From contig JAQWSN010000027.1 of NCBI GenBank assembly GCA_029243165.1, forward strand, positions 62,001 to 126,000: a DNA stretch of 64,000 bases, written 5' to 3'. This document shows positions 12,399 through 43,069 of this stretch, piece by piece. Source of the DNA: Flavobacteriaceae bacterium. Its GTDB lineage: Bacteria; Bacteroidota; Bacteroidia; Flavobacteriales; Flavobacteriaceae. Each line of letters opens with the position of its first letter. Position 1 is the first letter of the stretch. A program made the position numbers and the translations under genes. The notes beneath the pieces were generated by a model. That model saw only the letters and a list, made by a program, of their open reading frames with translations, ran no database searches and was not told the origin of the DNA.

Positions 12399-13981
12399 GA
12401 CGTTTTGCTGCTTTGATTGAAACTCTGGATGCCACCAATAAAACAAATAAAAAGGTAGAGGCACTGAGTCTGTATTTTCAAAATACACCCAAAAAAGATG
12501 CTCTTTGGGCGGTTGCACTTTTATCACATCGACGTCCATCCAGACCCGTAACCACAACTCTTATGCGTACGTGGGCAGCGGAACTTGCAGCATTGCCTGA
12601 ATGGCTGTTTGAAGAAACCTACCACATTGTAGGCGATTTAGCCGAAACCATTGCCTTACTTATTCAAAAAGAAGGTTCGGGAGCTCCTCCCTCTCTATCA
12701 CTATGCATAGAGAATATCATCGCCTTAAAACCCAAAACCGAACAAGAAAAAAAAGATTACATATTAAATCAATGGCAAAACTTAAATCATTTTGAGCGTT
12801 TTGTTTTTAACAAGATTTTGACGGGTGGTTTTCGCATAGGGGTAAGTCAAAAGTTAATGACTCGGGCACTTTCAAAAGCCGTCGCTATTGATGAAACTAT
12901 TTTGGCTCACCGATTGATGGGACAATGGAGTCCGCAAACCACAACTTTTGATCAACTGATCCTACATCCCAATCCGGAAGATCAGATTTCTCAACCCTAC
13001 CCCTTTTTTCTAGCACACCCTGTAGAGGATCCCTTTTTCAATAAAGAAAACCCTCAGAAGTGGCACGTCGAACACAAATGGGATGGTATGCGTGCCCAAC
13101 TGATTCTCAGAAAAGGAAAACACTTTTTATGGAGCCGAGGAGAAGAGTTGATTACGGATAAATTCCCTGAACTTGAAGTATTGAAAAACAAACTCCCAGA
13201 AGGAACTGTAATTGATGGTGAATTGATTCCTTTTAATGAAAATATTATTGGGAACTTTCAAGAGCTTCAAAAACGTATTGGACGTAAAACAGTTTCCCAA
13301 AAACTACTTAAAGACATCCCCATTGTCTTGATGGCGTACGATTTACTCGAATTAGACGGACTGGATCTACGACCACTTCCACTTAGCGAACGGCAAGAAA
13401 AATTGACCAAACTTTGTCAAGAAAATTGCAGTCCTAATCTGCCTCTTTTGCAATCAAAAATTTATCATTTTTCTGACTGGGAAGCAGTACGAGCAGAAAG
13501 AGAAAAAGCAGATGAAAAACGCAGTGAGGGACTTATGATAAAAAATAAAGAAGCTCCCTATGGTGTTGGTCGAAAAAAGGGAAGTTGGTGGAAGTGGAAA
13601 TCTGATCCGAAAAATATTGATGCCGTTTTAACCTACGCCATGCGTGGTCACGGAAGAAGAACGAACTTGTACACCGACTACACCTTTGCCCTTTGGCATA
13701 AAGGAGCCTTAGTGACTTTTGCGAAAGCCTATTCAGGACTTACAGATGCTGAGATCAAAAAACTAGATCAATTTATTAAACAGAATACATTGGATCGTTT
13801 TGGTCCAGTTCGTCAGGTAAAACCCGCTTTGGTTTTTGAAATTGCCTTTGAAGGAATTGCTCCTTCTTCTCGACATAAAAGCGGCATTGCAGTTCGGTTT
13901 CCAAGAATTTCAAGATGGCGACACGATAAAAAATTGGAAGATGCCAACAGCCTCGACGACTTAAAAAAATTGTTGCCATGA
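12395..13981 (+). CDS. ATP-dependent DNA ligase (repair cluster type)
   Basis: A 528-residue ligase. The ATG at 12395 is preferred over a longer upstream start because it overlaps the previous stop as ATGA and gives the usual N terminus MRRFAAL. The adenylation motif EHKWDG places the nucleotidyl-accepting lysine at residue 228, and the later ligase motifs are seen as DGELIPF, GLMIKNK and KKGSWWKWK. An alpha-helical N-terminal domain precedes the catalytic core and an OB domain follows it. It seals nicks using ATP, in addition to the housekeeping NAD ligase expected elsewhere in the genome. It overlaps the helicase gene by ATGA at 13978. The cluster is thought to act in DNA damage repair. Confidence 0.95.
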   Translation: MRRFAALIETLDATNKTNKKVEALSLYFQNTPKKDALWAVALLSHRRPSRPVTTTLMRTWAAELAALPEWLFEETYHIVGDLAETIALLIQKEGSGAPPSLSLCIENIIALKPKTEQEKKDYILNQWQNLNHFERFVFNKILTGGFRIGVSQKLMTRALSKAVAIDETILAHRLMGQWSPQTTTFDQLILHPNPEDQISQPYPFFLAHPVEDPFFNKENPQKWHVEHKWDGMRAQLILRKGKHFLWSRGEELITDKFPELEVLKNKLPEGTVIDGELIPFNENIIGNFQELQKRIGRKTVSQKLLKDIPIVLMAYDLLELDGLDLRPLPLSERQEKLTKLCQENCSPNLPLLQSKIYHFSDWEAVRAEREKADEKRSEGLMIKNKEAPYGVGRKKGSWWKWKSDPKNIDAVLTYAMRGHGRRTNLYTDYTFALWHKGALVTFAKAYSGLTDAEIKKLDQFIKQNTLDRFGPVRQVKPALVFEIAFEGIAPSSRHKSGIAVRFPRISRWRHDKKLEDANSLDDLKKLLP

Positions 13982-40235: not shown

Positions 40236-40844
40236 ATGGCTTTTGAATTACCCGCTCTATCATACAACTACGATGCCCTAGAGCCACACATTGATGCACG
40301 AACTATGGAAATTCACCATGGCAAACATCACAACGGTTACACAACCAAACTCAATGCTGCTATTGCAGACACTCCTCTAGCTGATCAGTCTATTGAAGAT
40401 ATTTTGACTAATCTTGATATGAACAATAAAGCTGTGAGAAACAACGGTGGTGGATTTTTTAATCACTGCCTTTTTTGGGAAATGATGTCTCCCAACGGAG
40501 GCGGATTACCAACAGGAAAATTGGCTGCTGCTATTGATGGTGAATTTGGTGGTTTTGAAGAATTCAAAACTGCTTTTGCAAATGCAGCAGCAACTCAATT
40601 TGGGTCTGGATGGGCATGGCTTTGTGCTCAAAAAGACGGAAGTGTTAAAGTCTGTGCAACTGCAAATCAGGATAATCCACTAATGCCTGGAATTGGGTGT
40701 GGTGGAACTCCAATTTTAGGTATTGATGTTTGGGAACATGCATATTACCTAAATTATCAAAACCGTCGTCCAGATTATATTAATGCTTTTTTTAATGTAA
40801 TTGATTGGAATAAAGTAGGCTCTCTTTTCGAAAAAGAAATTTAG
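40236..40844 (+). CDS. sodA: Superoxide dismutase (Mn/Fe family)
   Basis: A 202-residue cytoplasmic enzyme that dismutates superoxide. Metal ligands appear in order: H27 in [12 protein letters not shown], the His of GFFNHCLFW, and Asp and His in [20 protein letters not shown]. The glutamine in [10 protein letters not shown] is placed as in manganese or cambialistic enzymes, so the metal is probably Mn, though sequence alone cannot exclude Fe. There is no signal peptide. It is a single-gene unit ended by the hairpin at 40859-40886. Confidence 0.96.
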
Positions 40845-40858
40845 AATAAGTGTAAAAT

Positions 40859-40886
40859 AAAAGGGAGGAATAAATTCCTCCCTTTT
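40859..40886. terminator. Bidirectional intrinsic terminator, first copy
   Basis: A perfect 12-bp stem (AAAAGGGAGGAA with TTCCTCCCTTTT) around the loop TAAA, starting 14 bases after the sod stop. A on one side and T on the other let it work in both directions. It could end sod on the plus strand and the small-RNA candidate on the minus strand. Confidence 0.8.
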
Positions 40887-40929
40887 GCCCCAAATCTTAC
40901 CATGAACTTAACCTACTTATGTTCTGGTT
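40859..40929 (-). ncRNA. Candidate 71-nt structured small RNA, copy 1
   Basis: On the minus strand a -7-like box TACATTTA (40940-40933) is followed four bases later by a hairpin (ACCAGAAC, 13-base loop, GTTC-A-TGGT with one bulge; 40928-40899). Twelve linker bases follow, then the 12-bp terminator stem (40886-40859). The 42-base block 40887-40928 is identical to copy 2. The layout is that of a short RNA ending in its own terminator, but no TTG lies at the right distance (nearest gives a 22-base spacer). I do not recognise the sequence. Confidence 0.4.
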
Positions 40930-41026
40930 TTGTAAATGTATCTTTACTGGTGAAGGCTTAACCAATTCATCGTTTAAAAGTCATTTTTTTGGATAATGCG
41001 TTTAGGGATGGAACTGTTGTAAAAAT

Positions 41027-41054
41027 AAAAAGGAGGAATAAATTCCTCCTTTTT
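41027..41054. terminator. Bidirectional intrinsic terminator, second copy
   Basis: Perfect 12-bp stem (AAAAAGGAGGAA with TTCCTCCTTTTT) around the loop TAAA. Compared with the first copy one G-C pair is replaced by A-T, so both arms changed together and pairing is kept. It could terminate purF transcription on the minus strand. Confidence 0.75.
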
Positions 41055-41097
41055 GCCCCAAATCTTACCATGAACTTAACCTACTTATGTTCTGGTG
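41027..41097 (-). ncRNA. Candidate 71-nt structured small RNA, copy 2
   Basis: Same architecture as copy 1: -7-like box CATATTTG (41108-41101) on the minus strand, four bases, the bulged hairpin (41096-41067), the 12-base linker and the terminator stem (41054-41027). The -7-like box lies at exactly the same distance from the hairpin in both copies although the bases between the units have diverged. Alternatively the element is just part of the purF 3' untranslated region. Confidence 0.4.
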
Positions 41098-41170
41098 ATT
41101 CAAATATGGACTAACTTAACTTCTGAAATGAATTAATTCGTTTAAATGCTATTTTTATGGGTAAAGTGTT

Positions 41171-43069
41171 TTAATACGCTCTCTTGTTGTTCTTTTCAAC
41201 AAAATTGACAAAAGCTTGGTTAACTACTCTACACCCTCCGGGGGTAGGATAATCTCCTGTAAAGTACCAATCTCCTAAGTTTTTGGGACAAGCTTCATGC
41301 AGTCCATCAACGGTCTGAAAAATTACTTCAACCTCAGCTCGAATACTATCATTCTTAAGAAGTTCTGAAATCTTACTCGATATTTGTTCGTTTGAGTACG
41401 GAGCATAAATCGATTTAACAAAGTTTGGTGGGGCTGATTCTTTTTCGTCTAGACTCTGTTTGCATTTTTTGTAAACAGAATGAATCACTTTTTCATAATT
41501 TCCGTCTTCTTCAAGTAATGCAAGTGCGGCTCTAAAAGCAATGAACTCCTCCAGCTTTGCCATGTCAATACCATAACAATCAGGATAACGAATTTGTGGG
41601 GCACTAGATACTACCACTATTTTTTTTGGACCTAAACGATCCAACATACGTAAAATACTTTTTTGTAAAGTGGTCCCTCGGACGATACTATCATCTATGA
41701 TAACCAAATTATCTGATGGCTTTACCACCCCATAGGTGATGTCATAAACATGAGCCACTAGATCATCCCGATCACTATCCTCAGTAATAAAGGTTCTAAG
41801 TTTAGCGTCTTTAATTGCAATTTTTTCAATCCGTGGTTTAAGTGATAGCAGTTTTGATAGTGCCTCACTATCGGGTTGACTTGATTTGAAAAGTTCTTCG
41901 TGCAGGGTTTTGCGTACATGATCTTGAACAGCGCCAATAAGTCCATAAAATGATGTTTCTGCTGTATTGGGGATAAATGAAAAAACACTGTTTTCTAAGT
42001 CACCACCAATGGCAGTATGCACTAATGGGAAAAGTGCTTTCCCTAAATTCTTACGTTCTTGATAAATTTCTGCGTCCCCCCCTCTGGAAAAGTAAATTCG
42101 TTCAAAGGAACACGCTTTCTTTTCTTGTGGTTCAATGATTTTTTTTATGGAAGTACCTCCCACTTTTTTTGTAATTAAGGCGTGACCTGGCTCGAGTTCT
42201 TCAACCTTATCATAGTCTACATTAAATACGGTTTGAATTACAGGGCGTTCGGAAGCTACAACTACAATTTCATCGTCAGAATAATAATAAACGGGTCTTA
42301 TTCCTACAGGATCTCTCAAAACAAACGAATCTCCATGTCCTAATAATCCTGCCATAGCGTACCCTCCATCCCAATTTTTTGAAGCTTTGCGGAGAATTTT
42401 AGACAGCTTGAGTCGTTCCGCAATTAATGGAGATGCTTCCTTTTTTGTGTAGCCTTCTTTTCGCAGTTTTTTGTAGATTTTGGCTACGGCGTCATCTAGG
42501 AAGTGGCCGATCTTTTCCATTACAGTAATGGTGTCCGCTTTTTCTTTTGGATGCTGACCGAGATCGACCAAATTTTCAAAAAGCTCATTAACATTGGTTA
42601 GGTTAAAATTCCCAGCCACTATCAAATTTCGATGCATCCAATTGTTTTGCCTTAAAAATGGGTGTACGCTTTCAATATTATTCTTTCCAAAGGTTCCATA
42701 CCGCACATGTCCCAACATCAATTCCCCTACATAGGGAATTTTATTTTTAACTTCTTGAGAGTCAGAAAGGATTTCGGGATTACTCTTTATCTCCTTTTGA
42801 ATCCGAGTATTGATGGTTTTAAATATTTTTTGAATGGGTTGTTGTTCCGCAGAACGCACTCTACTGATGTAACGCTGACCCGGTTTCATGTCGTATTTGA
42901 TACTGGCAAATCCTGCACCATCTTGACCTCGATTGTGTTGTTTCTCCATCAACAAATACATTTTATTAATCCCATAAAACGTACTCCCGTATTTTTCTTT
43001 GTAAAAGGATAACGGTTTTTTTAGTTGTAGAAGGGCAATTCCACATTCGTGCTTGATCGCATCACTCAT
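41171..43069 (-). CDS. purF: Amidophosphoribosyltransferase
   Basis: First committed enzyme of purine synthesis, making phosphoribosylamine from PRPP and glutamine. The catalytic nucleophile is probably C9, exposed after removal of an 8-residue propeptide (MSDAIKHE-CGIALL). Glutaminase motifs follow (NRGQDGAGFA, LGHVRYGTFG). The PRPP-binding loop is VIIDDSIVRGTTLQKS. At 632 residues it is about 120 longer than the Escherichia coli enzyme, with extra helical segments in the first half, as I recall for Bacteroidota forms. It is the last gene of a minus-strand purN-rnhA-pfkB-purF group, 7 bases after pfkB. Confidence 0.93.
   Translation of the reverse strand: MSDAIKHECGIALLQLKKPLSFYKEKYGSTFYGINKMYLLMEKQHNRGQDGAGFASIKYDMKPGQRYISRVRSAEQQPIQKIFKTINTRIQKEIKSNPEILSDSQEVKNKIPYVGELMLGHVRYGTFGKNNIESVHPFLRQNNWMHRNLIVAGNFNLTNVNELFENLVDLGQHPKEKADTITVMEKIGHFLDDAVAKIYKKLRKEGYTKKEASPLIAERLKLSKILRKASKNWDGGYAMAGLLGHGDSFVLRDPVGIRPVYYYSDDEIVVVASERPVIQTVFNVDYDKVEELEPGHALITKKVGGTSIKKIIEPQEKKACSFERIYFSRGGDAEIYQERKNLGKALFPLVHTAIGGDLENSVFSFIPNTAETSFYGLIGAVQDHVRKTLHEELFKSSQPDSEALSKLLSLKPRIEKIAIKDAKLRTFITEDSDRDDLVAHVYDITYGVVKPSDNLVIIDDSIVRGTTLQKSILRMLDRLGPKKIVVVSSAPQIRYPDCYGIDMAKLEEFIAFRAALALLEEDGNYEKVIHSVYKKCKQSLDEKESAPPNFVKSIYAPYSNEQISSKISELLKNDSIRAEVEVIFQTVDGLHEACPKNLGDWYFTGDYPTPGGCRVVNQAFVNFVEKNNKRAY

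Follow-up and report, generated by a model that had tools for sequence, protein, structure and literature searches.

Two tandem units between sod and purF

In the 64,000-nucleotide stretch of Flavobacteriaceae DNA analysed here (the window), a gene for an Fe/Mn superoxide dismutase (sod; 40236..40844, plus strand; assigned by Pfam and synteny) converges on a minus-strand gene at 41171..43069 that carries Pfam glutamine amidotransferase domains and that we take to be purF, as did an earlier note on the same DNA (the sequence-only reading). By synteny, sod is the conserved convergent neighbour, and purF the conserved upstream neighbour, of an array of two small RNAs (sRNAs) predicted on the minus strand: copy B, proximal to purF, spans 41021..41096 with a predicted 5′ end at 41096, and copy A, proximal to sod, spans 40853..40928 with a predicted 5′ end at 40928. 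These features rest on predicted folds and on a covariance model, R1, in which copies B and A score 109 and 108.6 bits, respectively, both copies being themselves members of the model.

The sequence-only reading had described two units with a period of 168, and they are present: positions 40854-40937 and 41022-41105 are 93% identical across 84 nt. The identical block reported within them also exists, its length being 46 nt (40883-40928) and not 42. On the minus strand, terminator hairpins lie at 41027..41054 in copy B and 40859..40886 in copy A; the two 13-nt arms of each hairpin show 100% complementarity, and one compensatory G-C/A-T pair distinguishes the two stems, as had been claimed. The symmetry of the copy B hairpin permits a plus-strand reading too, and the copy A hairpin is so placed that it probably also terminates sod on the plus strand.

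Minus-strand -7-type boxes, CATATTTG in copy B (41101..41108) and TACATTTA in copy A (40933..40940), occupy the same relative place in each copy, as the sequence-only reading had noted. The DNA around these boxes had been described as diverged, which is not the whole picture: a second repeated stretch (40970-41003 and 41138-41171, 79% identical) overlaps with the upstream portion of both promoters, a region in which many relatives also conserve a repeat. Each promoter contains a minus-strand direct repeat of two half-sites with a period of 20 bp: that upstream of copy B (41134..41168) resembles a LytTR site and scores z 5.3 against shuffles, and that upstream of copy A (40966..41000) scores z 4.0. 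The minus-strand order is the same in both copies: direct repeat, -7 box, ACCAGAACATAAGTAGGTTAAGTTCATGG (the 5′ hairpin), linker TAAGATTTGGGGC and terminator.

Folding of the two 76-nt units on the minus strand lies 3.8 and 4.1 SD below dinucleotide shuffles, none of 200 shuffles being as stable. By the same measure the plus strand of the units is at least equally stable, so the strand cannot be told from folding by itself; we assigned the minus strand from the layout of promoter and terminator. The 5′ hairpin was predicted in all seven sequences folded, and the linker is predicted to be single-stranded.

A predicted RNA with a near-invariant core across the Flavobacteriaceae

To define the distribution of the RNA, we used R1, built from 13 members, and a broader covariance model built from 81. 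Of 299 genomes sampled from the family to which the window belongs, the Flavobacteriaceae, R1 matches 258 at E≤0.01 and 237 at E≤5e-9; the remaining 21 matching genomes have best E values of 2.7e-6 to 7.6e-3 and may be terminator-only hits. The possibility, allowed for in the sequence-only reading, that this locus has no homologues elsewhere is disproved by the 258 genomes. Among the matches listed for the 81-member model, 32 of 246 genomes of the order match, all in the same family (40 sampled), and none of 206 genomes from other families of the order does. In a phylum-wide sample, again among the matches listed, 26 of 296 genomes match, all within the family (30 sampled), and none of the 266 outside it. 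In both samples, the numbers of genomes inside and outside the family were read from an ordering of the genomes by kinship. Both scans used strict filters, and a diverged member, in genome G801, escaped them and was found later; absence outside the family therefore means that the RNA was not detected there.

The 24-mer core occurs exactly in 78 stretches of a species-level genome collection, titled Flavobacteriaceae, Flavobacteriales, Flavobacteriia, Arcticimaribacter, Cryomorphaceae or Bacteroidetes. Within the window's own genus, a 34-mer is present within 3 mismatches in 18 of 37 genomes, a count in which many non-matching genomes are incomplete and several matches stop at contig ends. The core was not found in viral contigs.

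The neighbourhood is also conserved. Both purF and sod are nearby in 115 of 143 locus-copy rows (14 have purF only, 5 sod only and 9 neither), overlapping loci being counted more than once; in a wider set, purF was found within the available stretch at 29 of 30 loci and sod at 20 of 30. Tandem matches number 1-6 per carrier genome (26 genomes, phylum sample).

The two domains of the RNA are conserved in different ways: the letters of the terminator vary while its pairing is kept, and the 5′ domain is nearly invariant. In the terminator hairpin, which is accompanied by a T-run, both sides have changed in 10 of 12 pairs. Its covariation score was reached by none of 500 shuffles; pair types were no more numerous than in shuffles (473/500), and the 81-member alignment had been fitted to the structure tested. 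About 34 nt, including loop and linker, are almost invariant in the aligned members, and the core CATAAGTAGGTTAAGTTCATGGTAAGATTTGGGGC is retained in loop and linker as well, genus g147 showing a few changes. The 5′ stem predicted for the wider family pairs CCATAGC with GTT-C-ATGG, leaving one bulged C. In the 81-member alignment, none of the pairs of this hairpin has both its bases changed, and 56 of 74 rows lack the G5-C pairing; because the 5′ domain is nearly invariant, its pairing is only thinly supported. Single loci do vary: the internal A.A mismatch becomes C-G in L006, and both sides of the outer stem have changed in L020.

These patterns bear on whether the block makes an RNA at all. 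Hairpins symmetrical enough for both strands, together with plus-strand terminator matches, are what would be expected if it served the convergent genes purF and sod as a duplicated bidirectional terminator and nothing more, with no RNA product. Such a terminator would leave unexplained why the 5′ domain and the -7 box are conserved, along with the upstream repeat in most promoters, why the terminator changes in sequence and the 5′ domain hardly at all, and why copies are situated at priA/rpsF; we regard this explanation as very improbable. A small peptide read from a conserved ATG (ATG GTA AGA TTT GGG) was also considered, since the ATG lies within the conserved core of most aligned members. 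We rejected it: L020 has AAG in place of ATG, the frame is not kept from member to member, owing to the A-run and the length of the terminator, and conservation does not continue past the linker, so that hardly any likelihood is left to it.

At gathering thresholds, Rfam 15 found nothing in the window except a tRNA, and nothing in 18 loci of relatives. Matches such as sraA and the psbA 3′ UTR were set aside, as they align mainly to the terminator hairpin. An RNA present in about four of five sampled family genomes thus has no Rfam 15 model that reaches threshold.

Together, family-wide conservation, promoter elements, terminator covariation and the lack of an Rfam 15 match support the central claim of the sequence-only reading, namely that the minus strand encodes a matching pair of structured RNAs, both equipped with a promoter and a terminator of their own. 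Comparison among relatives shows a predicted stand-alone, promoter-driven and terminated RNA unit, and the near-invariance of a ~34-nt core across genomes this divergent suggests that the regulon is important.

A LytTR-like direct repeat in the promoter

TAnnTTTG is the promoter consensus of the phylum. In 136 non-redundant promoters of the RNA, a TAnnTTT -7 box is strong and fixed in position, and the -33 region is weak. Upstream of the -33 region lies a direct repeat with a period of exactly 20 bp (autocorrelation z 12.5, next best 2.3, in the same 136 promoters), a z value inflated by the relatedness of the promoters through descent. A matrix of the repeat scored z>2 in 59 of 64 other marine purF/sod promoters and in none of 132 controls taken 600 nt upstream; it had been trained on a wider set, and training and test promoters were never identical, although relatives may occur in both. 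Scores differed among promoter groups: 99 of 107 in the training set, 0 of 18 in an AT-rich group, 1 of 11 in a second promoter type and 0 of 6 among copies at the priA/rpsF site. Overall, 159 of 206 promoters had the repeat and 47 did not score.

The half-site TGCATTTTATCGA resembles the Escherichia coli YpdB site GGCATTTCAT (29 of 20000 shuffles were as good) and the Pseudomonas AlgR site CCGTTCGTC, described in PMC4064291 (as good a match arose in 71 of 20000 shuffles). None of the 136 promoters contains the exact AlgR site, and 8 contain GCATTTCATC. PMC4847170 lays out LytTR sites as repeats of 9-11 nt separated by spacers of 11-13 nt; a 20-bp period fits this plan as 9 nt plus an 11-nt spacer. 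The promoter repeat looks like a putative site of the LytTR response-regulator type.

In its own genome, the repeat pattern matched only the promoter of copy B, so no wider regulon is visible there; nor was the pattern found in 10 kb around the lytTR gene. Other promoter arrangements occur. A variant copy of the RNA (mostly AGTTTATGGTAAGATTTGGGACGAAAA) in L119, L124, L127-L129, L132, L138, L140-L142 and L168 has a different and very conserved promoter carrying ACCAGTAATTTAG or a near form, which suggests that one paralogue is controlled separately. In a small clade (L069, L077 and L090), the RNA is at purF/sod with a promoter that lacks the LytTR-like repeat.

An orphan LytTR protein as candidate activator

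The window's genome (G000) contains one LytTR-domain match, as does G023; in neither of the two was a LytTR protein other than the predicted activator found. In G000 it is an orphan receiver-LytTR protein of 231 aa whose gene adjoins priA and is divergent from rpsF. LytTR proteins as such were present in all 26 genomes tested, 10 of which were then scored RNA-negative; the association that we examined concerns the gene in the priA/rpsF slot.

That slot holds the regulator in 22 of 23 chosen RNA-positive genomes, the exception being G245. Nineteen genomes were at first taken as RNA-negative. In 18 of them the rpsF locus is present and no regulator gene was found there, the locus being cut at a contig edge 520 nt upstream in one of them (G187), which gave no regulator match at E≤1e-20. 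The nineteenth, G801, has the regulator gene and proved to carry the RNA as well: a diverged copy (36.6 bits) lies between purF and sod, and its repeat is visible. Among the weaker RNA-model matches, that in G178 reached 42.2 bits (E 2.9e-5), and the best in G239, G084 and G172 reached 31 to 33 bits. We judged the G178 match (L272) to be a non-member and kept that genome RNA-negative because the locus lacks purF and sod and retains little of the core.

The final tally is 23 genomes with RNA and regulator, 1 with the RNA only, 0 with the regulator only and 18 with neither: 42 genomes that were hand-picked from the family, order and phylum scans, fairly complete ones being preferred, giving a Fisher p of 5.4e-11 uncorrected for descent. 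On a tree of RpsF and RplI, the RNA requires 3 changes and the regulator 4. Well-supported branches provide two independent pairs, both concordant, and with just two a sign test cannot reach significance. With so few independent events, much of the association could be explained by descent.

G245, RNA-positive with the regulator gene missing, has its promoter in the group scoring 0/18 for the repeat. At eight loci without purF or sod, the RNA adjoins rpsF in all eight, which represent five distinct promoter sets, and the RNA copies beside rpsF score 0/6 for the promoter repeat. In L004, the RNA occupies, by coordinates, the regulator's slot and orientation. Regarding the layout of these loci, L004, L020, L074, L094 and L114 (three distinct sets) have the RNA on the rpsF side and priA on the other, with no regulator between; in L011, L071 and L101 only the rpsF side is present and the locus ends at a contig edge, so absence of the regulator is not visible there. 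A search for the sRNA near lytTR in 24 sources gave one weak match (L226, 30.2 bits).

The fact that LytTR proteins also occur in genomes scored RNA-negative, together with the small number of independent gains and losses, leaves room for a real RNA whose repeat is bound by another regulator, its co-occurrence with the priA/rpsF gene reflecting shared ancestry. The geometry of the repeat and its half-site fit LytTR sites, however; repeat and regulator are both missing in G245 and at the priA/rpsF-site copies; and no second LytTR protein was found in G000. We consider another regulator unlikely, though a serious competitor. Activation by the orphan LytTR protein is, on these comparative grounds, fairly well supported, and the protein is our candidate.

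Its receiver domain is degenerate in places. The receiver Asp is replaced by Ser in G000 and G023, by Lys in G236 and by Glu in G182 and G105; since this residue is the phospho-acceptor, the input to the regulator in those genomes is maybe not phosphorylation. The regulator genes that have lost the receiver Asp are L220:4151-4846 (+) and its orthologues in L222, L223, L237 and L240.

Predicted mode of action

We propose that the window carries, on the minus strand, two tandem copies of a Flavobacteriaceae-wide, LytTR-activated, multicopy, trans-acting sRNA, and we place the probability of this reading at roughly 0.7. Each copy would be expressed from its own promoter, comprising a TAnnTTT box, a weak -33 region and, just upstream, the direct repeat of 20-bp period; the orphan LytTR response regulator encoded in the priA/rpsF slot would bind this repeat and activate transcription. 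The predicted product begins with the 5′ hairpin, continues through a single-stranded linker that hardly varies, and ends in an intrinsic terminator. The 3′ side of the hairpin and the linker (UUCAUGGUAAGAUUUGGGGC) would then base-pair in trans with mRNAs near their start codons and block translation, and the tandem copies would raise the RNA dose. If true, this would provide a conserved RNA regulator and a candidate switch for these bacteria, many of which are ocean heterotrophs.

The last step, pairing at start codons, is a weakly supported prediction. Antisense matches to GCCCCAAATCTTACC with ≤3 mismatches occur at 35 places in the own genome (2 of them the RNA genes themselves), compared to 36 for a reversed control, and antisense matches to ATGAACTTAACCTACTTA at 5 places (again including the 2 RNA genes), compared to 12 for the control; the lack of excess over controls weakens the case for trans-pairing. 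We also computed duplex energies against the start regions of 51 window ORFs, which were kept by a mechanical rule that dropped any starting within 60 nt of an end. The best value (z -3.1) fell at 13978, in a gene assigned by Pfam to the Lhr-type helicases, where the pairing happens to include GCCATGAA; sod gave -1.44 and purF -0.93. Given the number of genes tested, we call no target.

The same antisense result would be expected if the RNA mainly bound and titrated an RNA-binding protein, the tandem copies adding binding sites and mRNA pairing being secondary. The near-invariant ~34 nt are longer than a typical pairing seed, and Bacteroides FopS is bound by the protein RbpB, according to PMC11697453. 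The linker is predicted to be single-stranded, however, as expected of a pairing seed, and protein titration appears to us improbable as the main function.

Comparison with known systems

Literature searches with exact core strings found no publication, and no title or abstract opening retrieved with related terms describes this RNA; most subscription journals lay outside both searches.

Against the Rfam family FopS (RF04319), this RNA scores 19.3 bits (E 0.28; 18.9 and 16.9 bits in another scan), below the gathering score of 56. Comparison with the conserved R1 seed sequence in the 5′ part of FopS gave matches of 9 nt and 6 nt, 2 nt apart: both the FopS consensus and this RNA have UUCAUGGUA..AGAUUU..GG. 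When sequences were shuffled 20000 times with dinucleotides preserved, a stretch as good arose 57 times with the window RNA, 96 times with L122 and 4181 times with the g147 version. In view of these counts, and of its having been noticed among thousands of families, the match is a lead only, and a motif common to this RNA and Bacteroides FopS is suggestive only. Separately, 16 viral contig stretches (L301-L316) have the exact FopS-type stretch TTCATGGTATTAGATTTAAGG in different surroundings; in L303, by eye, it follows an apparent 3′ part of a tRNA.

As described in PMC11697453, FopS/GibS of Bacteroides, which belongs to the same phylum, resembles this RNA in its shortness, its multiple copies and its terminator, and FopS acts near the start codons of susC-type mRNAs. 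In contrast to FopS, this RNA has an extra 5′ hairpin, tandem rather than dispersed copies, and a LytTR-like repeat in its promoter. A bolder reading, which we advance tentatively and hold to be doubtful in its entirety, combines these threads: an old Flavobacteriaceae module in which an orphan LytTR protein, its receiver sometimes degenerate, would drive a near-invariant RNA array of ~75-nt units that block start codons via a seed shared with FopS, some lineages having lost the regulator and carrying the RNA in its slot with a repeat-free promoter. If this were true, one sRNA seed would be common to the whole phylum.

The proposed LytTR-activated sRNA can also be set beside transcripts of Flavobacterium psychrophilum, whose catalogue (PMC9723704) names Rfp1-89. 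This RNA may be among them, Rfp18 included. Rfp18 is likewise an sRNA with a strong predicted structure, conserved in the genus Flavobacterium. It is predicted to pair through a third stem-loop, whereas the RNA described here has two.

PrrF1/F2 of Pseudomonas, a different sRNA pair, likewise has its duplicated genes together at a single locus; the likeness is one of layout. For the proposed control, precedents exist in AgrA-RNAIII and VirR-VR-RNA, in which a LytTR regulator binds direct repeats upstream of a regulatory RNA. Those pairs involve other RNAs, other phyla and another layout: here, an orphan regulator would act far from its own gene on tandem, very short RNAs.
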